Assembly (NCBI RefSeq): GCF_937616625.2
Contig: NC_065577.1
Location: 4,691,001-4,755,000, forward strand
DNA from: Mercurialis annua
Lineage: Eukaryota; Streptophyta; Magnoliopsida; Malpighiales; Euphorbiaceae
DNA length: 64,000 nucleotides
Reading direction: 5' to 3'
Of the stretch, positions 4,915 through 60,680 are shown piece after piece. Under the pieces are notes generated by a model. It saw only the letters and a program-made list of their open reading frames with translations, made no database searches and was not told the origin of the DNA. Position numbers and translations under genes: made by a program. The stretch's first letter is position 1, and each line of letters begins with the position of its first letter.

Positions 4915-5065
4915 TTCTCGAACGGGAATGGCCCTTTTTGGCCTGATCCCGTTCGAGAAAGGGCCTGGTCTCGAACGAGACCAGGCCTGCAAAAGGATTC
5001 TCGTTCGAGAATCCTTGGATTCTCGAACGAGAATCAAATTAAATTCTCTGGTCTCGATTGAGACC
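4915..5065. repeat. Palindrome array in LTR, CTCGAACGAG / CTCGTTCGAG type
   Basis: At least five near-perfect palindromes of 15-20 bp follow one another with short gaps: GGTCTCGAACGAGACC, GGATTCTCGTTCGAGAATCC, GGATTCTCGAACGAGAATC, then GGTCTCGATTGAGACC. Arms differ from unit to unit but each unit is self-complementary. A further inverted repeat GGTTCAACC / GGTTGAACC follows at 5082-5108. In element sense the array lies 190-340 bp into the LTR, upstream of the predicted leader splice donor. Confidence 0.85.
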
Positions 5066-5252
5066 TGAGTTAACCAGAAGTGGTTCAACCACTACGGTTG
5101 AACCACAACCCAAGGAGAAATCTTTTTTTTTAACCGAACCAAAAATGAATCGAACCACAATTAATTTACGAAACTTCAAATACCCCTCAAAACACATCCG
5201 GAACCACGTCGGAAATTAACAAAATAAATTCAAAATTTTACGGGATATTACA

Positions 5253-5957
5253 GCCATGAATTCTTATTACATTATTGTTGAATTCTCTTTGAATATGTGT
5301 AGCTAAACCCTTCATTAAACGAATTGGATTTGTGGGTTGTTGTTATTACTATGTTTTAATTATTGTTCTTAACGCTTGAATTTATTTGGCCAATTTATTC
5401 ATTATTCTGTGTTTTGGTTTTAGCTCGAGAGAGTAAAACTGGAATAGACCAACATAATTAAGAACGTAGGAGTTAATTGCGCGAGAGTGAATTGACGAGT
5501 ACGTGTTCTTAGGGTTTACTTCATAAACATTAATCGATTAGTAATTTAGGTTAATCATTGTGCGAGAGTGAGTAATTAGCCTGTTACTAGTTTGTTATCT
5601 GTTTTTGCCTGCAATTGCTCGAGAGAGAGAATTTTAGGTGCTTACGATTAGCTTGAACCTTAGTAGAACAACTAAATCCATATTCCAATCTGATTAAACA
5701 GCATAATGAAAGTTAATAATCCTTGTTCTTCCCATTATTGTTAAAACCTTATTTTTGTTACAGCTTTAGTTAATTTTAGCCATAATTGTTATTTCAGTTT
5801 ATTTAGTTTAATAACAACATTCAAATTATCTTTTTAGCTATTCAAATTGAGTTTCCTAACTGGTTGTCTTTAGAAGCTTTCTCTGTGGGTACGATATCCG
5901 GACTTCGCAGTCTGTATTACAAGCTGGCATACGTACGCTTGCGTATTTTCACCAACA
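5253..5957 (+). repeat. 3' part of an Athila-like LTR
   Basis: Matches, in reverse complement, the inner part of the solo LTR at 7007-7735 along its whole length, including the end block GTGGGTACGATATCCGGACTT and ...GCGTATTTTCACCAACA. It lacks a 5' end because the left-edge Ty3 element inserted at 5252/5253. It is followed by acttg and more LTR sequence rather than by a primer site, so it is an inserted solo or truncated LTR. Confidence 0.75.
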
Positions 5958-6272
5958 ACTTGACTCAAACCAATATCTCAATGAACCCCAGTTACCTAGG
6001 AACGTAATGAACCTAATTAGCAACCTCTAAGCGTCTTTTACCTATTTGTTAGACCCGCTTAATATTTGATCGTGTAGCTTTTTAATTGCTTGCTTAGTAG
6101 TCAATTGTTAATTTTATTAGTTTTAAATTTTGTAGTTATTAATCCAAATCAAATTGCTTGTGTGCTTTCCAAATTGGAATTCAAAATCCTAGTTCGTTCA
6201 CTTTAAACCTCTTGTCTTCATGGGATCGACATCCGACTTCCGGATTACTACGAGTTGGTAATTTTACTAACA
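5958..6272 (+). repeat. 3' end of a second Athila-like LTR
   Basis: Aligns with 61480-61796 of the Athila-like LTR at the right edge: CTTGACTCAAACC..., CACTTTAAACCTCT, GGGATCGACATCCG, ending TTACTACGAGTTGGTAATTTTACTAACA in several pieces. No tRNA-Asp primer site follows, so this is a solo LTR or a remnant. The fragment at 5253-5957 lies inside it. Confidence 0.65.
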
Positions 6273-7006
6273 TGTGTGCGTGGAAGAATCTTACTGAATG
6301 AGTCGTTTTGTATCGTAATCATAGGTTAAATTGATATATTCTTTGGAATGTCGGTATGTGAGTACGTTGTTATTGATTTGTTAAGGTTGATGGTCTTGCC
6401 GAGCTTAGTCCTTGTCGTGTGTACAGCTTGATTCTTCTAATGTTTTAAGTTGGCTGATATATTTTAGCGAGCACTTTATCTAGTAAACTTTGGACTAGAT
6501 CGTTCGTTTGATATAAAAAGTTTATTTATATGCTTCGATATGGGTTAATAGGTATAGAGATGTTAAGTAGGTGGCGAGGGGTGCATGATGTTATTAATGG
6601 GGATTTCAAGGTTTCCATTTTGAAGTGTTATATTTTGGTATTGTAAGAATTACGATTTGAGTTTCGGGCTTGTCCTTGCACGTTGTTAAGGTTGTTATGA
6701 TAGCTGTTAGAACTCGAGCGAGTTTTGGTAACCTCCCTTTGAGCATGTTTATGTTTATAATTGAATAATCTTGGAGTTTTCTATTTTGTTTAATCAAGTA
6801 ATAGTTTGGAGCACTTAACTGTCAGATTTATAATTTTGCGCATACGTGGTGTGAAAATTTGAGTTGTTGTTTTATGTAAGTGGTGATTTGAGTTATCATT
6901 CGAGGTACTACTTGTCGAGTTGTGGTTATGCAAGTGCGTAGGTTGATGAGTGGAGGTATACCTATGGTTTCAGTTTTACTCGGTTATATAGTTTGGGAGT
7001 ATACTT

Positions 7007-8605
7007 TGTTGGTAAAAATACGCAAGCGTACATATGCCAACTTGTAATACAGACTGCAAAGTGCGGATATCTTACCCACGGAGAAAGCTTCTAAATACAA
7101 CCAGTTAGGAGACTCGATTTGGATAGTTACAAAGATAATTTGATTGAATTTGTGTAAATTAAAAGAACTATTGCAAATTTAATAAAGTAAAGCTGAAATT
7201 AAATTAAGGTTTTAACAATAATGAGAAAAGCAGGAATTATTAATCTTCATTATGCTGTTTATTCAATTCGGGTTATGGATTTGGTTGTTCAGATAAGGTT
7301 CGGACTAGTCGAAAACACCTAGAATTCTCTCTCGAGCAATTGCAGGCAAAAGCATGAAAAAAACGGATAAAATGTTAATTATTCACTCTCGCACAATAAT
7401 TAACCTATTTACTAGTTGATTAAATGCTTATGAAGTAAATCCTACGAACACGCACTCGTTAATTCACTCGCGCAATTAACTCCTACGTTCTTAATTGTAT
7501 TGGTCTGTTTCAATTTTACTCTCTCGAGCTAAAACTAAAACACATGGTATAAACTAAGTGATCGATTTAGATTAAGCATTAAGAACAAAAATTAAAACGT
7601 ATCACGAACAAAAACCCATAATCCCAATTCGCTTAAACAGACATAACTTCAATTAATAATCCCCATCGAAGGGTTTAGCTACTCGTGATTAAGGAGAATT
7701 CAACAATATAATAAATGGAATTCATAATTGAATAATAGACAATAGTATAGAAATCTCTAATGAAATTGTACCTTAAACGTATAAAAATCCAGTAATCAAT
7801 TGAAGATGAAAATCCAATAATCAAGTGTAATCAAAACTAAGAACAATAATCTCTAGCTAAAATTAGGGTTTATGTCTAAGAAACGGTAAATTAATCGAAC
7901 CCTGACAAGATGTAATCGATAACTATATATACTCATGTGAAGTTAGGGTCTAATTCTGATTTTCATCTCTTTGTAGTGTCTAAATTGCCCCCGGCACTTC
8001 ATTCTTGTTATCCAAACTCGTAAGGCCAAACTTATAATTCAAACTGCAAAATTTCCTTCTCTCACGACGTGAAAATGAAGGCTCACGACGTGCAAGCCAT
8101 CTTTCACGTCGTGCGGCCATCGTGCAAACTTCCTGCAAAATTTCTTGACTTTTTGACACGTGCACACCATCTTTCACGACGTGCCACTTTTTCTGCTGCA
8201 AATCTCTAACTTCAAAACCTCATAACTCTTTATAGAAACGTTGGAATGAGTCGATTCTTGATTCTATGGAAAGCTTAGTATGTCTACTTTCTTTCTTATG
8301 AAGAACACAAAATCAATTGAGATGTCTAAATGCTCCAAAATTGTCAATCAATGAAGCAGGGTCAGATTCACAAGTATGCACTTTTGCTCTTGGCGTCTAT
8401 TTTCATCGATCTTCGTACCACATTCTAATATACTTCAATTATGGTCCCAAAGGCTCAAAAATTGATTAAAACTCATGAAACACGCCGACATGGTTCCTGA
8501 AATACTCAAGCTCAAAATGAGTACAAAGAAGTCCAAAACGAACGTAAAATGCATGAATATGACTCGAAATACACATAAAGCATATGAGTATTTCTACTCC
8601 TATCA
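7007..8605 (-). mobile_element. Athila-like solo LTR with 5-bp target duplication
   Basis: On the minus strand it starts TGATAGGAGTAGAAATACTC and ends ...ACCAACA, 1,599 bp, flanked by tactt on both sides (7002-7006 and 8606-8610). No internal region is present, as after recombination between two LTRs. In sense order: a terminal small hairpin, a CACGACGTG-type palindrome array (8186-8062), a TATA-like TATATATAG (7931-7923), and the U5-type end shared with 5253-5957. Confidence 0.9.
8062..8186. repeat. Palindrome array in LTR, CACGACGTG / CACGTCGTG type
   Basis: Repeated CACGACGTG or its complement CACGTCGTG at 8062, 8092, 8105 and 8175, with degenerate half-sites between (for example GCACGT at 8158-8163). 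In sense orientation the cluster lies about 130-255 bp upstream of the TATA-like sequence, so in the promoter part (U3) of the LTR. Confidence 0.75.
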
Positions 8606-11355: not shown

Positions 11356-11380
11356 TGCTCCAACACAAAATTACAGGTGA

Positions 11381-11498
11381 GGCGCGATGGAAGGCGCGAT
11401 GCGAGGCGCGTTCGTCCCATCGCGCCTTCATCAGGCGCAGAAAACTTATGGGGCGCGTTGCGAGGCGCGATGGCCCATCGTGCCCTCCAACGCGCCTC
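11381..11498. repeat. GGCGCGATG / CATCGCGCC inverted-repeat cluster in LTR
   Basis: Seven or more copies of GGCGCG or CGCGCC within 118 bp in both orientations (GGCGCGATGG, GGCGCGATGC, GGCGCGTT, CATCGCGCC, GGCGCGTTGC, GGCGCGATGG, CATCGTGCC, AACGCGCC). Opposed copies can pair. CG content is far above the surrounding AT-rich LTR. Confidence 0.8.
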
Positions 11499-16291: not shown

Positions 16292-16293
16292 AC

Positions 16294-17030
16294 TGATAGG
16301 AGTAAAATACTCCTATATCTAGAGTCGTTTCCATTACGTTTTGATACATTTTAGCACGTCATTTGAGGCATTTGGTGTCTTATCTTATGTGTATGCATTT
16401 CAGGAGGATTGGAGCGTAATGGAGACTATTTGGCCCAAAAAGTGGAAAGAACCGGCAAAGAATCGATTCGACAAAGTCTTGAAGCAAGAAAACGGCGAAG
16501 AGGCCTTTTTAAAGGAGGTCACGATCTGGACCTTGAGGGTCACGATCTGGACCAGGCATGAAAATGGAACTGAGAGGAATGCTCTAAGGAAGGTCATGAT
16601 CTGGACCTGAGGGTCACAATCTGGACCATTGTGATTTAGTGTAATTGCTCTAATTGTGTTTAGTGCTACGAGAGTAGGTTGAGCATTGATTAGTTGTGAT
16701 TTTGTAGATCTTTGAGGCTCGAGAGAGCGGGAGTTGCGATTTAGAAACGCTCGGCCCTCGTTTTATGACCCAAGACCCGAATACCGAGAATGCATGACCT
16801 AGATGGATTGTCGACCTCCAAACCTCGTTTATCATTTGAATTCTCGTTAATTGTTAATCGTTTTAGTCTTTTATAATTGTTAAATTAGTTGTTAATTGCT
16901 AGATTAGTGTTAGTTGATGGTTAATTGTTTAGTTGTTACTAGAAACTAATCTCTTTTCATTGCTTTCCGAATTGAAGTTCAAAATTATATTTCACTCACT
17001 TTAAAACTCTCATCTCTATGGGTTCGACAT
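16294..17030 (+). repeat. Athila-like LTR, 5' part, short form
   Basis: Begins TGATAGGAGTAAAATACTCC like the LTRs at 8605 (minus) and 60144, and includes the late block CACTTTAAAACTCTCATC...GGGTTCGACAT that lies about 45 bp before the end in relatives. It is therefore a shorter subfamily, or has an internal deletion. Cut at 17030 by the 17031 element; the missing end is not found on the other side of that element. Contains four copies of GGTCACGATCTGGACC (16517-16626). Confidence 0.7.
16517..16626. repeat. GGTCACGATCTGGACC repeats in LTR
   Basis: Two pairs of a 16-bp imperfect palindrome (GGTC...GACC arms, CGATC centre), each pair separated by about 4 bp and the pairs by about 40 bp. The third and fourth copies have one change each. 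Equivalent in kind to the palindrome arrays of the other LTRs. Confidence 0.75.
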
Positions 17031-18192
17031 TGTCACGACCCGATTTCCGCCTCGAAACTCGAGCCGAGACCGGCGCTAGGGAATGGGAATGGTTGTTCCG
17101 AAACCCGTAGCAAGCCTAAAACCTCTATAAATTTTTCGCCTCCTAAATACAAATCTAGATCGTATCTCGCGTACGACCCGTTTTCAGAAAACACCGTTAA
17201 AATATTTTTCCGTTTAACGTGGAAAACACATTCTGAAAATATTCATATAAGCGAAATCGCGTTTTCAGAAATGCTGGTTGAATAACCCTAGTTATTCTGA
17301 CCCACGCGCATTTCTGAAAACCGGTGCGGTGGTACAGGGACTTAGCTCACGTGCCTTGCCTCGCAGGCAGCCCTGTTTCAAACCGCGCACCCGAACAATA
17401 TGTTTAATAAAATATATCGAACACTTTCCTTTTCAAAGCGTTATATCAAACGTATTTAAAAACATGCACAGCAGGCACACAAACGTAAGGCCAGCTAAAC
17501 TACACACAGTGTCTTTGCAGACCAAAGACACGAAGCTAGGCCCACCCGTAGGGGACACCATAAAACACCATATGCCTATTAAGTAGCCACTTATTAGAGC
17601 TAGACAAAAGTCAGGTTCCTATCAGAGTATATAGACAAAGGAGCCATGACGTGACCACAGGCATATCAAACCTATATACACTATTGCAGCATCTAAGAGT
17701 TTAAAGTGTTATATACATAACAACAAGATAAGCTTCCCTGATGGAAAAGGGTGGAAGCTCGACCAGACCCGGTAGCTAAGTACCTGAAAATGATAAACAA
17801 CAACGGGGTCAGAAATATAAAATATTTCTGAGTGAGTAGATAGGTTTACAGTTAAATACCAAAATCGCATATATACAAAATATCGGTATATAAAAATATT
17901 ACCAGTCCTCGATCCAAATGAAACCCTAGTCCTGATTACGTTATAATGCTATCATATATATAATGCATATGCACAACTCTTGTTTAATACAGGATGAACT
18001 GTATACATATGTATCACAGCCATCTTGACTCTGTATAGGGTTGCTGGGCCGGAACTTAAATCACTGCCACCTCAGGACTACCCATTAGGTTCAAGCCGCT
18101 TAGCAAGCATCTGGCTTAAAACCTAATCTCAATATGTATGCTTATAATATTTACCTCTCATCTAGTTCATTAACACCGGTGATCACACAGTC

Positions 18193-18209
18193 CTATTGTT
18201 GCCCAATAG
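18193..18209 (-). other. Conserved LTR stem-loop, family D copy (3' LTR)
   Basis: Sense CTATTG-GGCAA-CAATAG, six pairs with a five-base loop, flanked by GAAACGAGCTAT and GACTGTGTGATCACCGG. The outermost pair of the other families is lost here. Confidence 0.75.
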
Positions 18210-18973
18210 ATAGCTCGTTTCAGTGGATCTTCCTTGGCTAAGTTTCATACTTAGTGCGATTTATGGAGTTAAAACAATTGAATACTAATATTCAAAAGTA
18301 AACAAATGAACTCACAAACACCGCTAGGTCTGGAACTTAATCCTGTGGTTGTGGTCAGACTGCTCGCTAGCTGGTCGGACTAAACACACAAAGCAAACAG
18401 GATAAAATATATCAATATATGTTTCCTATAAAATTTCTAGGTCCTTAAACCCAGATCTAGGTCAAACATATAATCATATAAACATATAGCACTTATGGTC
18501 TGTTTTCTTTTAAAACCATATTATAGATTCTCGTTTTGAGAAAACGTTATAACTTCTCTCTAGAAGTTATTTTAGGTATCACAATACCCTAAGAAAACCA
18601 TTTATAGTATAGACCTAATTGTCAAAACAATTCTCGGTCATATACTAAGTATTTAGCAAAACTGATTGCTAAATCTTTAAAACCATTTAAACGTTGACTT
18701 TAACTCTTTTAAAGTCCATTATAAACGTTTGACTTTGCTTTTAAAATCTCCTTTTAAAAGTCTTTAGGTTTACGTTATAAAACCTTTTCACTTTCTTCTA
18801 TCACAAGTTATCATTTTAAAATATCTAATTTTGATTTAAAAACATTTATTAAAAATGTTTTAGGTTCGGTTGGAAAACACCTCGGGTTATTAGGCGAAAG
18901 CACGTCGGAATCGCCCCCGAAAAGTCCCCCAAAAGACCGGAGAAAACAAACCCCGACATCCCGTCGGGGTTGC

Positions 18974-19227
18974 TGTGCGCCCGCACAGCAGTACTGTGCG
19001 GTCGCACAGTACAAACTGTGCGGTCGCACAGCTTGGCTGTGCGGTCGCACAACATTTTCATGCTGTGCGTCCGCACAGCTTGGCTGTGCGGTCGCACAAC
19101 ATTTTCATGCTGTGCGTCCGCACAGCTGATGCTGTGCGCCCGCACAGCATAGTGTGCGCCCGCACACTATGCTGTGCGGTCGCACAGCTCGCTGTGCTCA
19201 CGCACAGCGGGCTGCGCACCCGCACAG
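18974..19227. repeat. TGTGCGNNCGCACA palindrome array, 12 units
   Basis: Twelve 14-bp palindromes, TGTGCG-NN-CGCACA, where NN is CC, GT or TC; the last two are degenerate (TGTGCTCACGCACA, TGCGCACCCGCACA). Arms are nearly invariant and spacers vary, several extending the dyad (for example GCAGTACTGTGCG / CGCACAGTAC). Two adjacent 47-bp segments are exact duplicates. Open frames rich in CVRPHSxxxVRSHS in both strands are by-products. Confidence 0.9.
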
Positions 19228-19581
19228 CCCCGGAAACAAATTTCCGGGACCTCCCGTCCTACTTAAAACGTCCAAAAACGCTATTCTAACGTCCACAATC
19301 ACATATACACAATCCAAAATCAATACGGACGTTTAAAACGATAATTCGATACGGTAACCGTTTATAAACGAGTTTATATTCGAAATAATTCGAAATAAAC
19401 GTTTAATACGGATATAATACCTCGATTACGTGAGTAATCGTTGAAGAAATTGAGTTAGAATCGAGAAACGGATCGAACGGACGAAACCCTAATCGTCGCC
19501 GCACGTTCAGAGCTTAGCAGCTCTTTATTCTTTCTTCTGAGAAAGAAATGAGGCTTCTGCCTCTTATTTTCAAAGCAAGTG

Positions 19582-19592
19582 TTATATATATA
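19582..19592 (-). promoter_or_regulatory. TATA box of the non-autonomous element's LTR
   Basis: TATATATATAA on the minus strand, 550 bp into the LTR; the same sequence is in the other LTR (near 27009-27019). It would start transcription near 19555, putting the palindrome array in the transcribed leader. Confidence 0.55.
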
Positions 19593-20142
19593 GGAAATGG
19601 TTAAAGTGCAGTTTAGTACTAGCTCAATCATGCACTTTAAACCAACTTCTAAACTAGTCGTCCGTAGCCTAAACGGAAACGATTTCCAAATTTCGTGAAA
19701 ATTTTACCAAAAATCTAATAAAATATAGAAAGAATAAAAATATAATTTTTATTCCCATCCGACTTATATTTTATTCTTAATAAATCATTTTTGATTTATT
19801 AAGCCCGCATTGACTGCGCTTGATAAAATTTCTGCTTCCAAATTTTATCAAATTTTCACGATAACCTTTTTAAAATATTTCGCGAATATTGGCACCAAAA
19901 ATATTCGCTAGGGACTTATGAATTATTCTGCACCCAATTCATAAATCCATATTCTCTCCGTTAACTATATAACTAATCAAATTTAAATTCTAAAAATTTA
20001 AATTTGCAATCCTATAGCCATATTAAAAATTTAGGAACACTTGTAAATTAAATTTATCTTTAAATTTAATTTACCTACTTCCGTCTAATAAAATATTAGA
20101 CACGTGGCTATATTTTATTCCTTAAATTTCCGGGTTATTACA

Positions 20143-24488: not shown

Positions 24489-24500
24489 GCTCTGATACCA
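24489..24500 (-). other. Primer-binding site, initiator tRNA-Met
   Basis: TGGTATCAGAGC on the minus strand, four bases from the 5' LTR end, identical to the sites at 2327 and 46049. Confidence 0.9.
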
Positions 24501-25665
24501 CACTTGTCACGACCCGATTTCCGCCTCGAAACTCGAGCCGAGACCGGCGCTAGGGAATGGGAATGGTTGTTCCGAAACCCGTAGCAAGCCTAAAACCTCT
24601 ATAAATTTTTCGCCTCCTAAATACAAATCTAGATCGTATCTCGCGTACGACCCGTTTTCAGAAAACACCGTTAAAATATTTTTCCGTTTAACGTGGAAAA
24701 CACATTCTGAAAATATTCATATAAGCGAAATCGCGTTTTCAGAAATGCTGGTTGAATAACCCTAGTTATTCTGACCCACGCGCATTTCTGAAAACCGGTG
24801 CGGTGGTACAGGGACTTAGCTCACGTGCCTTGCCTCGCAGGCAGCCCTGTTTCAAACCGCGCACCCGAACAATATGTTTAATAAAATATATCGAACACTT
24901 TCCTTTTCAAAGCGTTATATCAAACGTATTTAAAAACATGCACAGCAGGCACACAAACGTAAGGCCAGCTAAACTACACACAGTGTCTTTGCAGACCAAA
25001 GACACGAAGCTAGGCCCACCCGTAGGGGACACCATAAAACACCATATGCCTATTAAGTAGCCACTTATTAGAGCTAGACAAAAGTCAGGTTCCTATCAGA
25101 GTATATAGACAAAGGAGCCATGACGTGGCCACATGCATATCAAACCTATATACACTATTGCAGCATCTAAGAGTTTAAAGTGTTATATACATAACAACAA
25201 GATAAGCTTCCCTGATGGAAAAGGGTGGAAGCTCACCAGACCCGGTAGCTAAGTACCTGAAAATGATAAACAACAACGGGGTCAGAAATATAAAATATTT
25301 CTGAGTGAGTAGATAGGTTTACAGTTAAATACCAAAATCGCATATATACAAAATATCGGTATATAAAAATATTACCAGTCCTCGATCCAAATGAAACCCT
25401 AGTCCTGATTACGTTATAATGCTATCATATATATAATGCATATGCACAACTCTTGTTTAATACAGGATGAACTGTATACATATGTATCACAGCCATCTTG
25501 ACTCTGTATAGGGTTGCTGGGCCGGAACTTAAATCACTGCCACCTCAGGACTACCCATTAGGTTCAAGCCGCTTAGCAAGCATCTGGCTTAAAACCTAAT
25601 CTCAATATGTATGCTTATAATATTTACCTCTCATCTAGTTCATTAACACCGGTGATCACACAGTC

Positions 25666-25682
25666 CTATTGTTGCCCAATAG
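25666..25682 (-). other. Conserved LTR stem-loop, family D copy (5' LTR)
   Basis: Identical to the copy at 18193-18209 in the partner LTR. Confidence 0.75.
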
Positions 25683-26446
25683 ATAGCTCGTTTCAGTGGA
25701 TCTTCCTTGGCTAAGTTTCATACTTAGTGCGATTTATGGAGTTAAAACAATTGAATACTAATATTCAAAAGTAAACAAATGAACTCACAAACACCGCTAG
25801 GTCTGGAACTTAATCCTGTGGTTGTGGTCAGACTGCTCGCTAGCTGGTCGGACTAAACACACAAAGCAAACAGGATAAAATATATCAATATATGTTTCCT
25901 ATAAAATTTCTAGGTCCTTAAACCCAGATCTAGGTCAAACATATAATCATATAAACATATAGCACTTATGGTCTGTTTTCTTTTAAAACCATATTATAGA
26001 TTCTCGTTTTGAGAAAACGCTATAACTTCTCTCTAGAAGTTATTTTAGGTATCACAATACCCTAAGAAAACCATTTATAGTATAGACCTAATTGTCAAAA
26101 CAATTCTCGGTCATATACTAAGTATTTAGCAAAACTGATTGCTAAATCTTTAAAACCATTTAAACGTTGACTTTAACTCTTTTAAAGTCCATTATAAACG
26201 TTTGACTTTGCTTTTAAAATCTCCTTTTAAAAGTCTTTAGGTTTACGTTATAAAACCTTTTCACTTTCTTCTATCACAAGTTATCATTTTAAAATATCTA
26301 ATTTTGATTTAAAAACATTTATTAAAAATGTTTTAGGTTCGGTTGGAAAACACCTCGGGTTATTAGGCGAAAGCACGTCGGAATCGCCCCCGAAAAGTCC
26401 CCCAAAAGACCGGAGAAAACAAACCCCGACATCCCGTCGGGGTTGC

Positions 26447-26652
26447 TGTGCGCCCGCACAGCAGTACTGTGCGGTCGCACAGTACAAACTGTGCGGTCGC
26501 ACAGCTTGGCTGTGCGGTCGCACAGCATTTTCATGCTGTGCGTCCGCACAGCTGATGCTGTGCGCCCGCACAGCATAGTGTGCGCCCGCACACTATGCTG
26601 TGCGGTCGCACAGCTCGCTGTGCTCACGCACAGCGGGCTGCGCACCCGCACA
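26447..26652. repeat. TGTGCGNNCGCACA palindrome array, 10 units
   Basis: Same array as at 18974-19227 in the other LTR of the same element, lacking one 47-bp two-unit segment. Confidence 0.9.
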
Positions 26653-27576
26653 GCCCCGGAAACGAATTTCCGGGACCTCCCGTCCTACTTAAAACGTCCA
26701 AAAACGCTATTCTAACGTCCACAATCACATATACACAATCCAAAATCAATACGGACGTTTAAAACGATAATTCGATACGGTAACCGTTTATAAACGAGTT
26801 TATATTCGAAATAATTCGAAATAAACGTTTAATACGGATATAATACCTCGATTACGTGAGTAATCGTTGAAGAAATTGAGTTAGAATCGAGAAACGGATC
26901 GAACGGACGAAACCCTAATCGTCGCCGCACGTTCAGAGCTTAGCAGCTCTTTATTCTTTCTTCTGAGAAAGAAATGAGGCTTCTGCCTCTTATTTTCAAA
27001 GCAAGTGTTATATATATAGGAAATGGTTAAAGTGCAGTTTAGTACTAGCTCAATCATGCACTTTAAACCAACTTCTAAACTAGTCGTCCGTAGCCTAAAC
27101 GGAAACGATTTCCAAATTTCGTGAAAATTTTACCAAAAATCTAATAAAATATAGAAAGAATAAAAATATAATTTTTATTCCCATCCGACTTATATTTTAT
27201 TCTTAATAAATCATTTTTGATTTATTAAGCCCGCATTGACTGCGCTTGATAAAATTTCTGCTTCCAAATTTTATCAAATTTTCACGATAACCTTTTTAAA
27301 ATATTTCGCGAATATTGGCACCAAAAATATTCGCTAGGGACTTATGAATTATTCTGCACCCAATTCATAAATCCATATTCTCTCCGTTAACTATATAACT
27401 AATCAAATTTAAATTCTAAAAATTTAAATTTGCAATCCTATAGCCATATTAAAAATTTAGGAACACTTGTAAATTAAATTTATCTTTAAATTTAATTTAC
27501 CTACTTCCGTCTAATAAAATATTAGACACGTGGCTATATTTTATTCCTTAAATTTCCGGGTTATTACAGACATAAC

Positions 27577-38000: not shown

Positions 38001-38751
38001 CTTAAATATTGATTATATTAAAGTTAAAATAAATAAATAATATCATTGTAGATTTGTATTTATTATGCATCTAAATTAATTTCGTATAAATGTGTATAAC
38101 ATGTTCGGTAAAATACCTAAATAGACGATTCAAACTTAATTTATTGCTCTGGATATATATTTGACTTTTTAATTAAATATCTTTTAAATTTTAATTTTTT
38201 GGATAAATAAAATAAAATATTCAGAAACTAGAGATTACACATTATAGGAAATAATATTCCCATGATATCTTGTATTATAATATCTTGAAAAAATATTTTT
38301 TATTGGATATTTGTTGATTGTAGGTTGATTTTAATTGCTCATTTATTCTCTTTAATTACTTTTTGATAGCTCGTTATACTTGCTCTTTGGTTGATTATTG
38401 GTAGTTAAATGGTTAATTATTGGTGGCTCATTGGTAGCTCGTTCGTTGCTCTTTAATTGATCTTCATGCTTGTTGTATTTTACTTTCATTTTGATTGATT
38501 TTTAGCTGGTGAGTTAGTTTTTAGTACCATGTTTGAATATAAATATAATCTTCAAACAAATATTGTTTTCACTTATCAAAAATAATGTAGTCTATCTTCT
38601 AATTTTATTTTCTGTTATAACATATGATATTGGTATATTTTTTAGAGAAAAAAATAAAAATATTCCAAAATAAATCAAATATTACACAAATAGTCAAAAC
38701 CCAAATTTTTTACATTCATGACAAAATAAGGAGAAAGTTCACATTTTCTAA
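35013..38751. other. AT-rich intergenic DNA
   Basis: Apart from the foldback element at 36090-36400 I see no gene, RNA or structured repeat. Open frames are short and contain stops throughout. 38320-38470 has a loose repetition of TTGATTATTGGTAG / GCTCATTGGTAGCTCG. Confidence 0.6.
36090..36400. mobile_element. Foldback MITE
   Basis: AGGGGTAATGTCATAAAAATT...TTTTCTCATTTTAATCA is inverted at the right (TGATTAAAATGAAAAAACG...GACATTAACCCT). A second inner arm pair (CACGAACTACCACTTTTTCTC / GGGAAAAAGTGGTAGTTCGTG) follows. Flanks attattta and atttttta are an imperfect 8-bp duplication. Confidence 0.75.
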
Positions 38752-39489
38752 CCAACTGTCACGACCCAATCTCAGGATCGAGACCGGCGCTAGGGAATGG
38801 GAGTGGTTGCTCCGAAACCCGTAGCAAGCCTAAAAACGTAAAATAATTTTTCGCGAAATGTAAACGTCATGCATGACATACATAAACACGTGTCATGCAG
38901 AAGCACACATGACAGGCACACATATCCTCTGGCAGTCACAATATTATATAACGCAGCAAGCGTAAAACACATATACTTTAAAACATTAAAGTTATATTTA
39001 CAGAAAACTATATATTACAGCTGACTCGCAAAATACTTATCTACTGCAGCTCTAAGAGTAAAGTACTGTTTCTTTACATACTAAAAAATACAGACTTCTG
39101 GAAGTAGGATAGAAGTCTGTTGCCTCAAAGCGTCTTTATCCTGAAAGGAAATCTGTGAGGGGTCAATATATTGGGATATACTGAGTGAGTTCATACATTT
39201 ACTAATAAGTATTTAAATAAAACATAAAATCGTAATCAATCATATGCAGCCAAGTACAGGATCCGATTGAAACCTTAATCCTCGAACATACTAATAATCA
39301 ATCGATCAACCCAATCATAAATATCAATTGCGAGTCCAACTCGCTGGTGGCCCAGCCACTAGATACGGGGACTTCCAGGCTACACCGTAGCCGAGTTCAC
39401 TCTACGTATCGAAATCATAACCCAATCGTAAATTTCATATTCATCATCAGCTCCCAGCTGAAGCATATCAAAACTGGTGATCACACAGT

Positions 39490-39508
39490 CCTATTGTCGC
39501 CCAATAGG
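39490..39508 (-). other. Conserved LTR stem-loop, family E copy (3' LTR)
   Basis: Sense CCTATTG-GGCGA-CAATAGG, seven pairs, five-base loop, flanked by GGAACGTGCTA and ACTGTGTGATCACCAGT. Confidence 0.8.
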
Positions 39509-40100
39509 TAGCACGTTCCATCGGATCAATACTGGTTTCAAATCAAGCATATGCAATTCATAAAAAGAATTCGCATCGCAATCATGTAAAACAAACATAA
39601 AGCAATATAAAATATTTGCTTAAATAAATACTTTAAAAGCAAATCGTATAAACTCACAGAAAACGCTTATCCAAAAATACGTCGGGGCTTTAGAAACGTC
39701 AAGCTTCCCGAGCTCCTGGTCCAGCTGCTTCTTGCCTCGCTGGATCTAAAACAATTTCAAAACATTTGACTCACATCAGAATCCTATTCTAAGATTGACT
39801 CTAGACTCGAGACACGACAAGACACAAAACATAAGCCGTCGTGCTTCAAACGTAATCTTTTCCGATAAACGAATCATTCTTCTCTCATCTCTTACTATTT
39901 CTCAGTTCAATTTTCAATAGAGAATATAGGTTTTCTCAATGAAACCAATTGATATCCATAAACTAACTAATCCCAAACAACTAGTCATAATTTACTCGTT
40001 TTACGTCCGAATCTCGCATTTTCGGAGTCCGGGAGTCGATATCGGGATGGGGAATCATCAAATTAGGTTTTTAGGGTCATTCCCCTTCAAAGGAGGGGTG

Positions 40101-40232
40101 GTGCACGTCGTGCACCCCCCTTGTGCACGTCGTGCACCTTGGGTGCACGTCGTGCACCTCACTGGTGCACGTCGTGCCCCTGCACGACGTGCACTGATGT
40201 TGTGCACGTCGTGCACCTTCGTGGGCACGACC
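40101..40232. repeat. GTGCACGTCGTGCAC palindrome array, six units (3' LTR)
   Basis: Units of 15 bp at 40101, 40123, 40143, 40164, 40180 (inverted, CTGCACGACGTGCAC) and 40202, plus a degenerate GTGGGCACGACC tail, with period about 20 bp. Each unit is an odd palindrome. The array lies in the predicted leader intron, 360-490 bp downstream of the TATA box. Confidence 0.9.
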
Positions 40233-40591
40233 CAGGCCGCTGAAAACAGCCCTCCCGACGTGCTAAAACCTTCCTGAGCCATTAGATTCATCAAAACATC
40301 AATCAAGCTAGTCGGAAACACGCGAAAACGATAGAAAACGAGTTTAAAACGATTAAACGATTCGATACTATAAAAACCTATCGTTTAACTCGATATATCA
40401 CCAAAATCACTAACCCAAATAACGAAACGACAAGCTTACCTTGTTCCCCACCACGATACGAAGAAATCGAGACGAAAAACTCGCAAAACAGATCAAGAAC
40501 GGCGATCGAGCGACGGAAACGGTGAGAACGGCGAGAGAATGAAAAAGGGTCTGATGAAGGTTCTGTATCATTCCTTCATCTGAAGGAAACT

Positions 40592-40600
40592 TATATATAT
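40592..40600 (-). promoter_or_regulatory. TATA box of the Tekay-like LTR
   Basis: TATATATAA on the minus strand about 340 bp into the LTR, with a matching copy at 47900-47908. Downstream sequence is a CT/GA-rich leader up to the splice donor. Confidence 0.6.
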
Positions 40601-40891
40601 AATGGTCAATTTGCAACTTGGTCCTTGAAACTTTTCAAATGTTGCAATTTAGTCCAAAACCTATCCGCGTCCAAAATTTAAACGGTCTCCGATTGACTCG
40701 AAACTTTTACCACTAATACTATAAATTATTTCGCGGACTTTGGCGAAATAATTTCCGTCACGGGATTTATAATATATTTTATATTAATTTCTGAAGTTAA
40801 ATCCTTAAATCCCGCTAACTAACTTATTAAAATTTATTCTAAATTCCCGATATAATTAAATTAAATTCTCCTTAATTTAATTTATCGGAAA

Positions 40892-43800
40892 TCACGACAC
40901 GTGGCACGACGTAATTATCTTAAAATATTTTGGGGTATTACATTCACCCCCCCTTAAAATAAATTCGTCCTCGAATTTAAAATTTAGCCACGTACCTTGA
41001 GTGAAAAGATATGGGTACTTCTGCCTCATATCCTCTTCTGTCTCCCACGTGCACTCTTCTACGGACTGACTTCTCCAAAGAACTTTCACCATTGGAATTC
41101 TTTTCATTCGCAATTGCCGTATCTGCGTGTCGACAATCTGCACTGGTCGTTCTTCGTAAGTCAGTTCTTCGCTCACGTCCACCACTTGTGGTTGAATTAT
41201 TCGAGAAGGGTCTGGTACATATTTCCGGAGCATGGAAATATGGAAGACAGGATGAACTTGCAACATCTCTGGTGGCAAATCCAGCTTATAGGCAACTAAG
41301 CCTATGCGTTCTACGATCTGGTAAGGTCCGACATATCTCGGTGCCAATTTACCCTTCTTTCCAAAACGAATTACTCCCTTCATCGGTGATACTTTGAGAA
41401 ACACGTAGTCTCCGATCTGAAATTCAATATCCTTCCTCTTGGGGTCCGCGTAACTCTTCTGTCGACTGGAAGCAGTAGTCAAATGCTGCTTTATCAATGG
41501 CACTTTTTCTGACGTAATCTGGATGATCTCTGCTCCAGTGAGCTTTCGTTCACCGACTTCGTCCCAACAGATAGGGGATCGACACTTGCGACCGTATAAT
41601 GCTTCGTAAGGAGCCATCTCGATGCTTGAATGATAGCTGTTGTTGTAGGCAAACTCGACTAGAGGTAGGTACGTATCCCAACTACCTCCAAAGTCTAATA
41701 CGCAAAGTCGAAGCATATCTTCTAACGTTTGAATCGTTCGCTCAGACTGACCGTCCGTCTAAGGGTGAAACGCAGTGCTGAAATTCAATCGCGTTCCTAA
41801 TGCGTCTTGTAGACTCTTCCAGAAATGAGAGGTAAATACAGAACCTCTATCTGAAACGATTGACACGGGAACTCCGTGTAGGCTCACGATCTTATCGATA
41901 TAAATCTCCGCCAACTTTGCTGTAGAATAAGTCGTCTTTATTGGAATGAAGTGCGCTGACTTCGTCAAACGATCCACGATTACCCAAATAGAGTCAAAAC
42001 CTTTCTGCGTCTTAGGTAGTCCGACTACGAAATCCATCGTAATTTGCTCCCACTTCCACTCTGGAATGGGTAAGGGCTGAAGAAAACCGTATGGTCGCTG
42101 ATGCTCCAACTTGACTTGTTGACAAGTCGGGCATTTCGCCACGAACTCTGCGATATCTTTCTTCATTCCGCTCCACCAGTACGTTGTCTTAATGTCGTGA
42201 TACATCTTCGTGGAACCAGGATGAACGTTATACATCGTTCCATGAGTCTCTTCCATGATCTTCTGTCTTAAGTCTTCCACGTCTGGAACGCACATTCGAC
42301 TGCCGTATTTCAGCATTCCGTTGACGATACTGAAATCTTGACTCTTTCCTTGTTGAACTTCTTCAATTAGATGCTTTAATTGAGGGTCATCCGCTTGCAA
42401 TTCTTTGATCTGATCTATCAACGTCGATCGTATTGTTAGCTGAGCCATTAAGTTTCCGAGAGATGAAATCTCGAGCTCCACTCCTTGGCTAAACATCATA
42501 TGAATCTCGTTGATTAATGGTCTCCGCCATGTCGTTGTAACGTGCGCGAGACTTCCTGCCGACTTCCTGCTTAAGGCATCCGCCACTACGTTGGCCTTGC
42601 CTGGATGGTATTGTATCGTGCAGTCGTAGTCTTTTAGTAGCTCCATCCATCTCCGCTGTCTGAGGTTTAACTCTCGTTGTTCAAAAATGTACTTCAAGCT
42701 TTTATGATCTGTAAAGATCTCGCACGTAGCACCGTATAAATAATGTCTCCAGATCTTTAGCGCAAATATTACTGCTGCTAATTCTAGATCATGCGTCAGA
42801 TAATTCGTCTCGTGCTTCTTAAGCTGTCGCGACGCGTACGCTATTACTCTACCGTGTTGCATAAGGACGCATCCTAATCCGACTCGTGAAGCATCACAGT
42901 AGACTGTGAATCCTTCCGTTCCTTCTGGTAGCGTTAGGACTGGTGCCGTCGTCAGACACTCTTTCAGTTTCAGAAAACTGAGTTCACACTGGTCCGTCCA
43001 GTTGAATTTCGCGTTCTTCTGAGTTAACTTCGTCAAAGGTACAGCGATCTTCGAAAAGTCCTGTACGAATCGTCTATAATATCCTGCCAAACCGAGGAAA
43101 CTTCTAACTTCCGTAACCGATTCAGGTCGCTTCCATTCTATTACTGCTTCAATCTTCTTTGGGTCAACCTTAATGCCGCTTTGTGAAACCACATGACCTA
43201 AGAAAGCCACTTCCGTTAGCCAAAATTCACATTTAGAGAATTTGGCGTAAAGCTGATGCTCTTTTAGCGTCTGTAGTACTATCCGCAAATGTTGTGCATG
43301 CTCTTCTTTTGAACGTGAATAGATCAAAATATCGTCGATAAACACGATCACGAACTGATCCAAGTACGGTTTGAATATTCTATTCATCAAATCCATGAAG
43401 GCTGCTGGGGCGTTCGTCAATCCGAATGACATAACGAGAAATTCGTAATGACCGTATCGAGTTCGAAAAGCAGTCTTCTGAACATCATCATCGCGAATCT
43501 TCAGTTGATGATAGCCTGATCTCAGATCAATCTTGGAGAAATACTTCGCTCCTTGCAACTGGTCGAATAAATCGTCGATTCTAGGTAACGGATACTTATT
43601 CTTGATCGTCACCTTATTCAGCTGTCGATAATCGATACATAGTCGAAGCGATCCATCCTTCTTTTTCACAAATAGCACTGGTGCACCCCATGGGGATACA
43701 CTCGGTCTGATGAAACCACGATCAAACAATTCTTCTAGCTGATCCTTAAGTTCTTTAAGCTCTGCTGGCGCCATTCGATAAGGTGGTATCGATATCGGCT

Positions 43801-46048: not shown

Positions 46049-46060
46049 GCTCTGATACCA
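46049..46060 (-). other. Primer-binding site, initiator tRNA-Met
   Basis: TGGTATCAGAGC on the minus strand, four bases after the 5' LTR. Confidence 0.9.
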
Positions 46061-46797
46061 ACATTGTCACGACCCAATCTCAGGATCGAGACCGGCGCTA
46101 GGGAATGGGAGTGGTTGCTCCGAAACCCGTAGCAAGCCTAAAAACGTAAAATAATTTTTCGCGAAATGTAAACGTCATGCATGACATACATAGACACGTG
46201 TCATGCAGAAGCACACATGCCAGGCACACATATCCTCTGGCAGTCACAATATTATATAACGCAGCAAGCGTAAAACACATATACTTTAAAACATTAAAGT
46301 TATATTTACAGAAAACTATATATTACAGCTGACTCGCAAAATACTTATCTACTGCAGCTCTAAGAGTAAAGTACTGTTTCTTTACATACTCAAAAATACA
46401 GACTTCTGGAAGTAGGATAGAAGTCCGTTGCCTCAAAGCGTCTTTATCCTGAAAGGAAATCTGTGAGGGGTCAGTATATTGGGATATACTGAGTGAGTTC
46501 ATACATTTACTAATAAGTATTTAAATAAAACATAAAATCGTAATCAATCATATGCAGCCAAGTACAGGATCCGATTGAAACCTTAATCCTCGAACATACT
46601 AATAATCAATCGATCAACCCAATCATAAATATCAATTGCGAGTCCAACTCGCTGGTGGCCCAGCCACTAGATACGGGGACTTCCAGGCTACACCGTAGCC
46701 GAGTTCACTCTGCGTATCGAAATCATAACCCAATCGTAAATTTCATATTCATCATCAGCTCCCAGCTGAGGCATATCAAAACTGGTGATCACACAGT

Positions 46798-46816
46798 CCT
46801 ATTGTCGCCCAATAGG
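46798..46816 (-). other. Conserved LTR stem-loop, family E copy (5' LTR)
   Basis: Identical to the copy at 39490-39508 in the partner LTR, in a stretch where neighbouring bases have changed. Confidence 0.8.
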
Positions 46817-47408
46817 TAGCACGTTCCATCGGATCAATACTGGTTTCAAATCAAGCATATGCAATTCATAAAAAGAATTCGCATCGCAATCATGTAAAAC
46901 AAACATAAAGCAATATAAAATATTTGCTTAAATAAATACTTTAAAAGCAAATCGTATAAACTCACAGAAAACGCTTATCCAAAAATACGTCGGGGCTTTA
47001 GAAACGTCAAGCTTCCCGAGCTCCTGGTCCAGCTGCTTCTTGCCTCGCTGGATCTAAAACAATTTCAAAACATTTGACTCACATCAGAATCCTATTCTAA
47101 GATTGACTCTAGACTCGAGACACGACAAGACACAAAACATAAGCCGTCGTGCTTCAAACGTAATCTTTTCCGATAAACGAATCATTCTTCTCTCATCTCT
47201 TACTATTTCTCAGTTCAATTTTCAATAGAGAATATAGGTTTTCTCAATGAAACCAATTGATATCCATAAACTAACTCATCCCAAACAACTAGTCATAATT
47301 TACTCGTTTTACGTCCGAATCTCGCATTTTCGGAGTCCGGGAGTCGATATCGGGATGGGGAATCATCAAATTAGGTTTTTAGGGTCATTCCCCTTCAAAG
47401 GAGGGGTG

Positions 47409-47540
47409 GTGCACGTCGTGCACCCCCCTTGTGCACGTCATGCACCTTGGGTGCACGTCGTGCACCTCACTGGTGCACGTCGTGCCCCTGCACGACGTGC
47501 ACTGATGTTGTGCACGTCGTGCACCTTCGTGGGCACGACC
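47409..47540. repeat. GTGCACGTCGTGCAC palindrome array, six units (5' LTR)
   Basis: Same array as at 40101-40232 with one C-to-T type change in the second unit, consistent with deamination of a methylated CG. Confidence 0.9.
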
Positions 47541-48255
47541 CAGGCCGCTGAAAACAGCCCTCCCGACGTGCTAAAACCTTCCCGAGCCATTAGATTCATC
47601 AAAACATCAATCAAGCTAGTCGGAAACACGCGAAAACGATAGAAAACGAGTTCAAAACGATTAAACGATTCGATACTATAAAAACCTATCGTTTAACTCG
47701 ATATATCACCAAAATCACTAACCCAAATACCGAAACGACAAGCTTACCTTTTTCCCCACCACGATACGAAGAAATCGAGACGAAAAACTCGCAAAACGGA
47801 TCAAGAACGGCGATCGAGCGACGGAAACGGTGAGAACGGCGAGAGAATGAAAAAGGGTCTGATGAAGGTTCTGTATCATTCCTTCATCTGAAGGAAACTT
47901 ATATATATAATGGTCAATTTGCAACTTGGTCTTTGAAACTTTTCAAATGTTGCAATTTAGTCCAAAACCTATCCGCGTCCAAAATTTAAACGGTCCCCGA
48001 TTGACTCGAAACTTTTACCACTAATACTATAAATTATTTCGCGGACTTTGGCGAAATAATTTCCGTCACGGGATTTATAATATATTTTATATTAATTTCT
48101 GAAGTTAAATCCTTAAATCCCGCTAACTAACTTATTAAAATTTATTCTAAATTCCCGATATAATTAAATTAAATTCTCCTTAATTTAATTTATCGGAAAT
48201 CACGACACGTGGCACGACGTAATTATCTTAAAATATTTTGGGGTATTACACCAAC

Positions 48256-50015: not shown

Positions 50016-50076
50016 AGTGCCTCACTTTGATAAAAAAAATAATCCTAAGCTTCTTTCATTTCCACAATTAATCAGC

Positions 50077-58432: not shown

Positions 58433-59088
58433 TTATAACTTATTGAGTCTCAAATCAAATGAAGAGATCATCTTGTCCGTGCCATTGTGAATTATTGCAA
58501 ACCAATGAAAAACACCATTTAACTCAACAAGAGATCCGAAATCATCATCAGCAATATAATCATAATCTCGATTCTTAATGGCAACAGTCTTCCAAGAATA
58601 GGAGCTAAGTTGAAAAATTTTAGCAATTGCTGAATAAGTTTTATGAGCAAAAGGAAAAACAATTCTCACCACTTTGTAGTCATTATTCTTTCTATCAAAC
58701 CCGAATCCGAGGATGTCATACGACACAGTGCAAATCTTCCTTAAAGATGGTGTAATAAACTCTCCAATTGCAGGGTTCCATAAAATCAGGCTATCCTTAA
58801 TTTCATCAAACAAACAAACCAAACCATTACATGATCCAACTATCCTCACATAACTTCCACACTCATAAAATGAAGGCGAATCGAGCTGTCTATACTCGCT
58901 AAACGAGTCATTATCACAGTGCACCACAAATTCTGGTTTCGTAAAATCGAGTTGATTATACTTCATAACAAGTGAGAAGGTTTTGTTGGATTCAGCGGTG
59001 TGAGCTAAGTGAAGAGAAATGAAATTAGGGTTTGTGATTAGAGCGTACCATGATTTGCAAACACATTTGAATTTCAATAAATGGCAGA
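58433..59088 (-). pseudogene. F-box protein fragment (copy 3), truncated at both ends
   Basis: 214 codons aligning with residues 25-235 of copy 2 (FKCVCKSWYALITNPNFISL, GSCNGLVCL, LWNPAIGEFI, LGFGFDRKNNDYKVVRIVF, LVELNGVFHWFA, ISSFDLRLNKL-stop). The first 22-24 residues of the F-box are missing: upstream the frame reads FCHLLK and then a TAA at 59090-59092, and there is no ATG. The C-terminal third is also gone. Lacking the SKP1-binding start, it cannot be a normal F-box protein. Confidence 0.88.
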
Positions 59089-59563
59089 ATTAGAGAAACC
59101 ATACATACCCACAAACAAGCATAACGAATTTTCTTACGAAAAGAGAGTGAATTTTAGAATCAAAGAGACTAAGTTGGGAAAAGGTGCAGTAAAACTTTGC
59201 CGTTTTGCTCCCATAACTATTATTTCTTGAACTTATAACAAAAAAAGGTAGTATAAAATAAGGGTTCCACCTCCTTTTTAATTACATTTTTATATTCTAA
59301 AATCATCAATTTCATCTAAATTCAATTGTTGTCATAATTTTCACTTCATATGATGTTTTTACCCAAAATAAAGTAATTTAAAAAAATTAAATTCAGAGTA
59401 CAGTTATTTTTTTCCCCTCAAAAAAATTTCAAGTATTTTTTTCATCTTTTTTGACTAAATCTTAATTAGTCCTAAATTAATTTAATTTTTAATTTATTTA
59501 ACTATATCTTAAAAATCTTAAATATAAATTTAATTTATTAAATTTTTTATTTTAAAAATTTAA

Positions 59564-59959
59564 GGCAGAAGGTATAAAAAAGCCCTCGAATTTTTCTCAA
59601 AAGTACAGATCAGCCTTTTTACTTTATCTGGGCACAATTAACCCCCTGTATTTTTAAAATTGAACAATTAAACCCTTATTATTTTAAAATCGAACAAATA
59701 AACCCTTTTATTTTACTTTTGGGACACTTATCCCCTCAAATTTTTGATAAATATTTTAAATATTAAAATTATTTTTGAACTTTTTTCCTATATGATTATG
59801 AGAGACATGTCAGCTATTAACGAGTGTTTCTAATGATGTTGGATGAAAGGGCTTATTTGTTCTATTTGAAAACAAAGAGGGTTTAATTACAACCCAAAAA
59901 AGTAAAAGGACTGATTTGTACTTTTGTGAAAACTCTGAGGGTATTTTGTACCTTTTGCC
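59564..59959. mobile_element. Mutator-like MITE upstream of F-box copy 3
   Basis: Ends GGCAGAAGGTATAAAAAAGCCC and inverted GGCAAAAGGTACAAAATACCC, arms about 85 bp (CAAAAGTACAGATCAGCC...), perfect 9-bp duplication aaaatttaa (59555-59563, 59960-59968). No coding. Confidence 0.9.
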
Positions 59960-60055
59960 AAAATTTAATAAATCATAAACCGTCATATATTTATTCTGAT
60001 AAATTAAAAACAAACAGCGGCGGCAGAGTTGGAGAGACGATGGCAGAGAAAAACA

Positions 60056-60143
60056 ATTGCAGAAACAATAATTAGCATGCAAGGTTAACTTGTTCTTGGG
60101 AGGATGCAGTTTTGATCGAGGATTCTCTCTTTAAAAAGGTAGG
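60056..60143 (+). promoter_or_regulatory. Orphan copy of an F-box upstream region
   Basis: AGAAACAATAATTAGCATGCAAG, then GTTAACTTGTTCTTGGGAGGA matches 51515-51560 upstream of F-box copy 1, in the same orientation. It ends at the Athila-like insertion, whose expected target duplication is gtagg (60139-60143). Confidence 0.6.
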
Positions 60144-60563
60144 TGATAGGAGTAGAAATACTCCTATTTTCTATGTCGGTTTTGGTCTTTCTAATATGCT
60201 TTTATTGCTATAATTGAGCTATTTTGGGTCTTATTGTGTGTTTTAGTATTTCAGGTTAAATACATGGAAATCAATGAGTTTTGGGTTTAATTTGAGCATT
60301 CCGAAGGTTTCCGAAGCAAAGAGACGCCGAAAGCACATTTGCAAATCTGAAAATCTGACCCCGCTGCACTAATTGAAGAATTTGGACCAGTAAGAGACTT
60401 CCAATGAATTTGTGTTCTTCATAAGAAATAAATTAGACATCTTAAGCTTTCCAGGGGTTCAAAAACCAACTCATTTGGAGGTTTCTACAGCGAGTTATGA
60501 AGTTTTGAAGTCAGTGTTTGTGCAGCAGAAATAGTGTCTCTTTCAAGACAACTTTTGTGCATG

Positions 60564-60680
60564 TCTCGATCGAGAACCTCACCTTCTCGATCGAGAAGCA
60601 AGGCAAAAAATGGCAGAGAATTGGAAAATCTTGCTTCTCGATCGAGAAGCTGACTTTAATGAAGCTTCTCGATCGAGAAG
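60564..60680. repeat. TTCTCGATCGAGAA palindrome array
   Basis: Four perfect palindromes of 12-16 bp (TCTCGATCGAGA, CTTCTCGATCGAGAAG) at about 60564, 60583, 60635 and 60665. The array lies 120-235 bp upstream of the TATA box. Confidence 0.9.

Follow-up and report, generated by a model that had tools for sequence, protein, structure and literature searches.

Palindrome Arrays in the Window

The stretch analysed here, called the window throughout, comprises 64,000 nucleotides of the genome of Mercurialis annua (annual mercury, Euphorbiaceae; G000:C55:4691001-4755000) and contains long terminal repeats (LTRs) of several retrotransposon families. Within these AT-rich LTRs we found CpG-rich patches built of short palindromic boxes (units) with the centre CG-N1/2-CG (Table 1). 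The arrays at 8062 and 60564 adjoin one homologous upstream flank, designated F, with a different unit in each case, and the arrays at 4915 and 8062 have a common downstream segment (81% identity), yet their units differ as well. It is this exchange of boxes in a retained setting, and what it may mean for the control of the elements, that we describe below.

Element B, the only element of the window with its full coding region visible, encodes a Ty3-type gag, RVT_1/RNaseH, an integrase and a chromodomain, and contains no open reading frame (ORF) of at least 200 amino acids (aa) beyond gag, pol and the integrase-chromodomain part. Between the LTRs of element A there are five substitutions and three gaps, and the longest gap, of 47 bp, deletes part of the array. 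In the case of the 60564 element, a second copy of F lies 4,613 bp beyond the first one, outside the window, and we read it as the partner LTR. The 337-aa ORF of this element, which we take to be gag-like, has no Pfam match and four database relatives, three of them from M. annua.

Table 1. Arrays, flanks and associated features of the window, with positions counted from its first letter.
Feature	Position	Strand	Basis
CTCG-WW-CGAG array, 5 units, centre spacing 31/22/30/22	4915..5065	+	palindrome test
TATA-box candidate, 135-137 bp from nearest 8062 unit	7924..7931 (approximate)	-	TATA search
CACG-W-CGTG array, 4 exact units, spacing 21/21/70	8062..8186	-	exact matches; fails the test with arms of at least 5
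Upstream flank F of 8062 array, ~76% identical to 60312-60536	8190..8410	-	homology; genome matches: best 40 of 718 candidates
Element A LTR of 3.1 kb, with array at its positions 916-1169	17027..20142	-	
TGTGCG-NN-CGCACA array, 12 units, spacing 20-22, two of 26	18974..19227	-	
Element A partner LTR	24500..27568	-	
Element A partner array	26447..26652	-	
Element B LTR (chromodomain Ty3); array at LTR positions 711-842 of 2192	38751..40942	-	
GTGCACG-W-CGTGCAC array, 6 units	40101..40232	-	
Element B partner LTR	46057..48250	-	
Element B partner array; one G-to-A change within	47409..47540	-	
Upstream flank F of 60564 array	60312..60540	+	genome matches: best 40 of 803 candidates
TCTCG-AT-CGAGA array, 4 units at 60564, 60585, 60636, 60667	60564..60680	+	
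TATA-box candidate, 126 bp from last 60564 unit centre	60799..60804	+	
337-aa ORF of 60564 element with CCHC-like motif	61953..62966	+	

An earlier note on this DNA had listed 13 palindromic intervals, and in each of them the bases in inverted repeats (arms of at least 5, spacer of at most 4) were compared with 300 dinucleotide shuffles. The value was reached by none of the 300 shuffles in seven intervals, namely the arrays at 4915 and 60564, both arrays of element A, both arrays of element B, and 15075-15244; the remaining six were not above shuffles (8062-8186, p 0.57; 9035-9069, p 0.05; 11381-11498, p 0.47; 11819-11835, p 1.0; 15787-15922, p 0.20; 16517-16626, p 1.0). For 8062-8186 the test is too strict, because its CACGWCGTG unit, of which four exact copies are visible, mostly has 4-bp arms.

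A scan of the window that did not depend on this list gave nine patches over threshold, and six of these held CG palindromes like those listed. CG-N1/2-CG palindromes with three more paired bases on each side numbered 43 in the whole window, compared with 2.95 in 40 shuffles (max 8), an excess of about 15-fold. GC-centred (4 vs 2.6) and CA-centred (9 vs 9.3) palindromes of the window were not enriched, and AT-centred (62 vs 34) and TA-centred (52 vs 29) ones were about 1.8-fold over shuffles. The observation in the earlier note is partly confirmed; its core, with the genome-wide and lineage data given below, proved stronger than it had been stated. Its generalizations fared worse. The arrays were said to occur in nearly every LTR family, but in 11 of 13 10-kb stretches sampled elsewhere in the genome CG palindromes were not significantly in excess (7 vs 3.65, max 8), so the arrays are a property of particular repeat lineages; the other two, satellite stretches, were excluded (0 vs 3.05). 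Neither does the unit differ completely between families, since CACG-W-CGTG occurs both at 8062 and in element B, and CTCG-WW-CGAG both at 4915 and at 60564. CG is not always inside the palindromes, as 15075-15244 is palindromic without any (e.g., GGAGGAGGAGCAGCTGCTCCTCCTCC), and no element with terminal inverted repeats was seen around 13500-17100, the sole region searched for one.

Several other features were seen alongside. The CG-free cluster at 15075-15244 (GGAGGAGCAGCTGCTCC type) lies inside 53-nt inverted arms (15070-15122 and 15196-15248) and does not belong with the CG arrays. The intervals 11381-11498 and 15787-15922 hold clusters of non-palindromic GGCGCGATG and CACGACGYG boxes. A segment of 75-100 bp near the 3' ends of the A and B LTRs is common (81-89%) to otherwise different families of the window (38754-38854, 17065-17139, 9067-9145 and 2343-2417). 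Between the repeats, at 52099-59089, there are F-box and F-box-associated genes with many paralogues. Elsewhere in the genome, G000:C1:30000001-30010000 (L009) and 22000001-22010000 (L020) are satellite-like, with AACGTTTACAAACGTT palindromes and a CpG observed/expected ratio of about 2, and a further CG palindrome patch (TGACAGATCCTCAGGCGAGGATCTGTCA, CAGACCCGCGGGTCTG) of another family lies in L016 at 4826-5050.

One Flank with Seven Unit Types

Three genome searches with F-type flanks returned 803, 718 and 842 candidates, of which the best 40 were scored in each case; 20 loci were fetched from each list, and 20 CTCGAACGAG sites separately. The F-bearing set comprised 66 loci, 64 of them fetched and two within the window; because these samples are top hits, the frequencies of types among them are not population frequencies. 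Exactly one of seven unit types was found by pattern search in 65 of the 66 loci (in 10 of them by a single match), so that there is one box type per LTR: TCTCG-AT-CGAGA, CTCG-AA-CGAG, CCGGCC boxes (13 loci), CACG-AA-CGTG, TATGCG-NN-CGCATA, GTGCG-AA-CGCAC or CACG-W-CGTG. None of the seven was found by pattern in L072, and some units of the CTCG lineage read CCCG..CGGG. At least two exact units of their own type were present in 55 of the 66 loci, one in 10 and none in one. In one locus, L098, the piece downstream of F contains, from its position 165 on, a long perfect inverted repeat (GCCAATCAGCGACGG..CCGTCGCTGATTGGC), a MITE-like (miniature inverted-repeat transposable element) insertion adjoining an array.

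The unit types sorted by clade on a tree of F (65 rows, L006 excluded). The eight labels needed seven changes, which is the minimum, and each of the six multi-row types formed one side of a branch, the TATGCG group being weakly supported (55/0). The TGTGCG and GTGCACG half-sites recur in elements A and B, whose LTRs show no significant match to F; the flank of element B was searched separately, and the places considered are those of the best 40 of 264 candidates.

The exchange of boxes is best seen in pairs of close relatives. F is 95.4% identical between L073 (GTGCACGAACGTGCAC) and L091 (GTGTGCGAACGCACAC), and four boxes of the two are in register, each with CA..TG in the one and TG..CA in the other, in both arms; a few more differences fall at the spacer or at box edges. 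The last four boxes stand 21/34/20 bp apart in L073 and 20/34/20 bp apart in L091, and the last box lies 128 and 129 bp from the TATA box, respectively. L083 (TATGCGGGCGCATA) has F 92.7% identical to that of L073, and the same distance of 128 bp; the downstream segment is also alike (74.4%, shuffled maximum 74.0%), and the boxes are different.

Distances to the TATA Box and between Boxes

The TATA test covered 51 F-bearing loci, the CCGGCC type, L006 and L072 having been excluded. In 36 of them, with six different unit types, the centre of the proximal unit lay 126-137 bp from the promoter-side TATAWA, so that in the F lineage different box types on a homologous flank stand at a near-constant distance from the TATA box.

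The boxes are also regularly spaced with respect to each other. For 28 arrays (130 centre distances) the mean cosine at 10.5 bp was 0.695, compared with -0.07 in a placement null (max 0.142, 2,000 draws). Among CTCGAACGAG doublets, 48 of 49 distinct spacings were no more than 2 bp away from a multiple of 10.5 (45% by uniform draw), and 32 of 33 when near-identical linkers were collapsed; this sample consisted of the first 100 of 392 places, on C1-C3, partly loci already in the set, with 49 distinct linkers. Phasing as a general rule was rejected, since two of the three unit types compared genome-wide do not follow it.

Doublets, defined as two units with 4-34 bp between them, were counted over the 451-Mb assembly. 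There were 6,463 TGTGCGNNCGCACA doublets (the pattern is palindromic and both strands give one number), 3,132+2,955 CACGAACGTG doublets and 200+192 CTCGAACGAG doublets, and no match genome-wide to the reversed pattern of any of the three. Single CTCGAACGAG sites numbered 3,255+3,322, and reversed ones 165+187. The control patterns have identical composition and are still palindromic, and only that for TGTGCG also retains the CpGs. In G000:C1:4534378-4552569 and C53:7576658-7585878, matches to array or flank recur every ~4.55-4.6 kb, like chains of LTR, internal part and LTR.

These counts bear on the idea that it is CpG density itself that is kept, as a protection from methylation, and not the sequence of the boxes. 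Though the arrays are CpG-rich patches in AT-rich LTRs, and plastic 5' CpG islands were described in Del LTRs (PMC4029996, in the part available), each lineage has its own fixed, dyad-symmetric box, and nothing in the genome matches the reversed TGTGCG doublet, which is just as CpG-rich. We regard a pure CpG-island effect as very improbable.

Conservation and Symmetry of the Boxes

Conservation was assessed in the 60564 type, with units defined on the window copy and the truncated locus L054 excluded. When 15 sequences were compared with five others (L057-L061), unit cores had diverged by 5.6%, F by 14.3%, the downstream part by 32.1% and linkers by 33.2%. Within the 15, nucleotide diversity (pi) was 0.011 in units and 0.040 downstream. 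CpGs were intact in 109 of 112 cells in units and in 68 of 84 elsewhere; thus, those in units do not decay as methylated CpGs often do, a point that bears on the methylation foci proposed in the earlier note.

The symmetry of the boxes was examined in 125 distinct units of 22 loci. Complementarity of the arms exceeded that of permuted pairs at offsets 1, 2, 4 and 5, weakly at 3 and 8, and was gone from offset 9 on, which gives an extent of ~16 bp in all. When half-sites were permuted within loci (5,000 permutations), the observed value was reached by 136 permutations at offset 2, by 26 at offset 8, by 329 at offset 5, by 585 at offset 4, and more often at the rest. As this permutation removes most of the complementarity, arm sequences vary chiefly from family to family, not from unit to unit, and covariation of arms is mostly absent between the units of one locus. 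Left and right half-sites have nearly equal dinucleotide frequencies and are mostly interchangeable within a locus. Judged from these sequences, this is the pattern of a dimer site, not that of hairpins each maintained separately. Symmetry was seen in the CTCG types, and conservation of dyad boxes relative to linkers in the 60564 type, as would be expected of an enhancer composed of sites for a dimeric factor.

The alternative is that the palindromes act through secondary structure of RNA or DNA, as hairpins which draw or feed small interfering RNAs (siRNAs). The arms are indeed complementary, and in maize small RNAs are reportedly in excess on the palindromic clusters of Sireviruses, and a structural peak was not obvious in Ty3 elements (PMC10760457, as far as the accessible text goes). 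RNA hairpins were nevertheless rejected, as G:T mismatches (21) did not exceed A:C mismatches (31) at offsets 1-5 of 68 sense-oriented units. The confinement of complementarity to ~16 bp and the interchangeable half-sites also argue against such structures, which would not evidently need 10.5-bp spacing or one box sequence per LTR, and we find this explanation rather unlikely.

Linkers were considered as well. Their identity within arrays was 0.495 (30 pairs) compared with 0.386 in shuffles, and 3% of pairs reached at least 0.7, which indicates some relatedness and few recent copies, so that linkers as tandem copies were dropped; linkers as a second palindrome were also rejected (0.318 vs 0.316 permuted).

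Discussion

We consider it probable, on the strength of sequence comparison, that the arrays are promoter-proximal cis-regulatory (enhancer-like) arrays of dimer sites in U3, the specificity of which switches by lineage. A cluster of boxes that is fixed in place while the sequence of the whole set is swapped between relatives looks like a control switch for a paired DNA-binding protein. Each box would be a dyad site X-CG-N(1-2)-CG-X' of ~16 bp for a homodimeric sequence-specific DNA-binding protein, and several such boxes would be packed two or three helical turns apart (strictly so in the CTCG-type lineages) upstream of the TATA box. Selection would keep the layout, and all boxes of a lineage would change their half-site at once, so that sister lineages may answer to different factors or factor variants. 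We infer binding of protein, activation, host-encoded factors and a payoff of switching, which might be escape from a repressor, escape from siRNAs, or competition between families. Host factors would be favoured because element B has no additional ORF of at least 200 aa, and because half-sites recur in LTRs without an F match. The interpretation in the earlier note is partly supported: its proposal that these are dimeric-factor sites that diversify fits with the symmetry, the mostly interchangeable half-sites, the conservation of boxes in the 60564 type and the differences between sister lineages. Heat-shock and auxin-response elements, considered as candidates, were dropped, as some units lack them. 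The TCTCG..CGAGA unit resembles the vertebrate TCTCGCGAGA element, to judge from the part of PMC6192621 that is accessible, and this is a lead only.

Several observations weigh against the arrays being such dimer-site enhancers. The conservation of boxes was measured in one unit type, 60564, in the main group of which F is more variable than the linkers (pi 0.070 vs 0.033). The loci are top hits related by descent, and the counts are thus not independent; L027 and L033 do contain copied doublets. A TATA box at the typical distance is missing in 15 of the 51 F-bearing loci: in ten of the 60564 type (four with an incomplete cluster picked by pattern, one truncated, five with degenerate units), in L087 and L089, where it lies at 154, and in L090, L098 and L100, which have none. 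Nor is there a TATA box at this distance in the 4915 lineage, in element A or in element B. For TGTGCG, 36 of 50 spacings are near a multiple of 10.5 (15 arrays, from the first 50 sites of the list). For CACGAACGTG the figure is 60 of 95 (27 arrays, from the first 100 rows of the list), with 15/20, 24-26, 35 and 43-44 as common spacings; compared with 48 of 49 for CTCGAACGAG, phasing is thus strict in CTCG lineages and loose elsewhere. Finally, the sequence between the last box and the TATA box of L073 and L091 is at chance (identity 0.649, shuffled 0.616, max 0.735), and as their F is 95% identical, the array could have been swapped there by block exchange through recombination and not switched step by step.

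The last point, taken further, would mean that array and core promoter pass together from family to family, as a block, by recombination during reverse transcription, rather than that boxes co-evolve. The common downstream segment of 4915 and 8062 with its different units fits this, as does the modularity of U3 described for Tnt1 (PMC1838419, part of the text). Against it, the four boxes of L073 and L091 are in register with matching changes in both arms, and L073 and L083 are alike on both sides of boxes that differ, on the downstream side just above the shuffled maximum. Moreover, block exchange accounts for a route and not for the conservation of boxes or their like layout; as the full explanation we hold it to be unlikely.

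A more specific version of the enhancer interpretation, which we offer tentatively and with more doubt than belief, is that of a fixed receiver scaffold, on which the whole set of dimer boxes would be recoded at once, tracking DNA-binding proteins that diversify in an arms race or by niche partition.

The close precedents are the palindromes of Sireviruses, the U3 subfamilies of Tnt1 and the arrays of VANDAL/VANC. In the part of PMC2829016 available, the repeated motif (RM) clusters of Sireviruses lie upstream of the TATA box and consist of palindromes, most of which have a CGG-CCG core. The arrays of M. annua are likewise family-specific clusters of short palindromes in the first half of the LTR, and lie upstream of the TATA box in the 36 loci mentioned, and not in A, B or the 4915 lineage. 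The same text treats RM clusters as peculiar to Sireviruses and gives the CGG-CCG core for all but Tnd-1; here the centre is CG-N1/2-CG, with CTCG, CACG, TGCG and similar half-sites in the types analysed. Also unlike in Sireviruses, which are Ty1/copia elements, one carrier (element B) is a Ty3-type element with a chromodomain, unit types change along a homologous flank, and helical phasing is seen in one group.

Tnt1 and Retrolyc1 may resemble our case in that otherwise similar elements are split into subfamilies by the U3 regulatory region; palindromes are not mentioned in the available portion of that paper (PMC1838419), and in M. annua the boxes change in sequence and retain their layout. 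F is common to the types, and L073 and L083 also have the downstream flank in common, just above shuffles.

The targets of VANC proteins diverge as tandem arrays of motifs (PMC5735166, PMC10398659, both in part), and the parallel with VANDAL elements drawn by the earlier note holds inasmuch as multiple short non-coding motifs evolve together and turn over fast, here with seven unit types on one homologous flank. It fails in that the motifs of VANDAL are described as arrays in the same orientation, with no palindromes mentioned in the accessible part of PMC5735166, and are bound by a protein encoded by the element. Neither was found here, the protein having been looked for among ORFs of at least 200 aa in element B. 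That the boxes are targets of element-encoded anti-silencing proteins which co-diverge with them would explain the rapid turnover by lineage, as in VANDAL21. With gag, pol and integrase-chromodomain as the only such ORFs of element B, and box types recurring in LTRs without homology to F, as if host factors were shared, this is quite improbable.

The Del chromovirus is similar in that the 5' half of its Ty3 LTR holds a CpG-rich patch which varies and has been interpreted as a moving target of silencing, and differs in that the eudicot group has no CpG island, and palindromes are not mentioned in the text available (PMC4029996). A survey of LTR structure (PMC3601003, as accessible) reports inverted repeats in the U3 of Sire and tandem repeats in U3, with no word beginning with 'palindrom-'. 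Switching of a whole array of units on a shared flank was not found in titles and abstract openings of the open-access literature, subscription literature being outside the scope.

Palindromic LTR arrays, held to be specific to Sireviruses in 2010 (PMC2829016, as far as its text is available), are thus extended to a Ty3 element with a chromodomain and to a second LTR lineage. M. annua offers one genome with thousands of box doublets, and one lineage alike in flank, layout and TATA distance but not in the box. This addresses how retrotransposon promoters work despite silencing, and how fast a regulatory code can change. If the scaffold is indeed recoded as a whole, each type of box would name a factor to be found, and the series of the F lineage is suited both to finding the bound factors and to testing silencing, competition and recombination against each other as the driver of switching.

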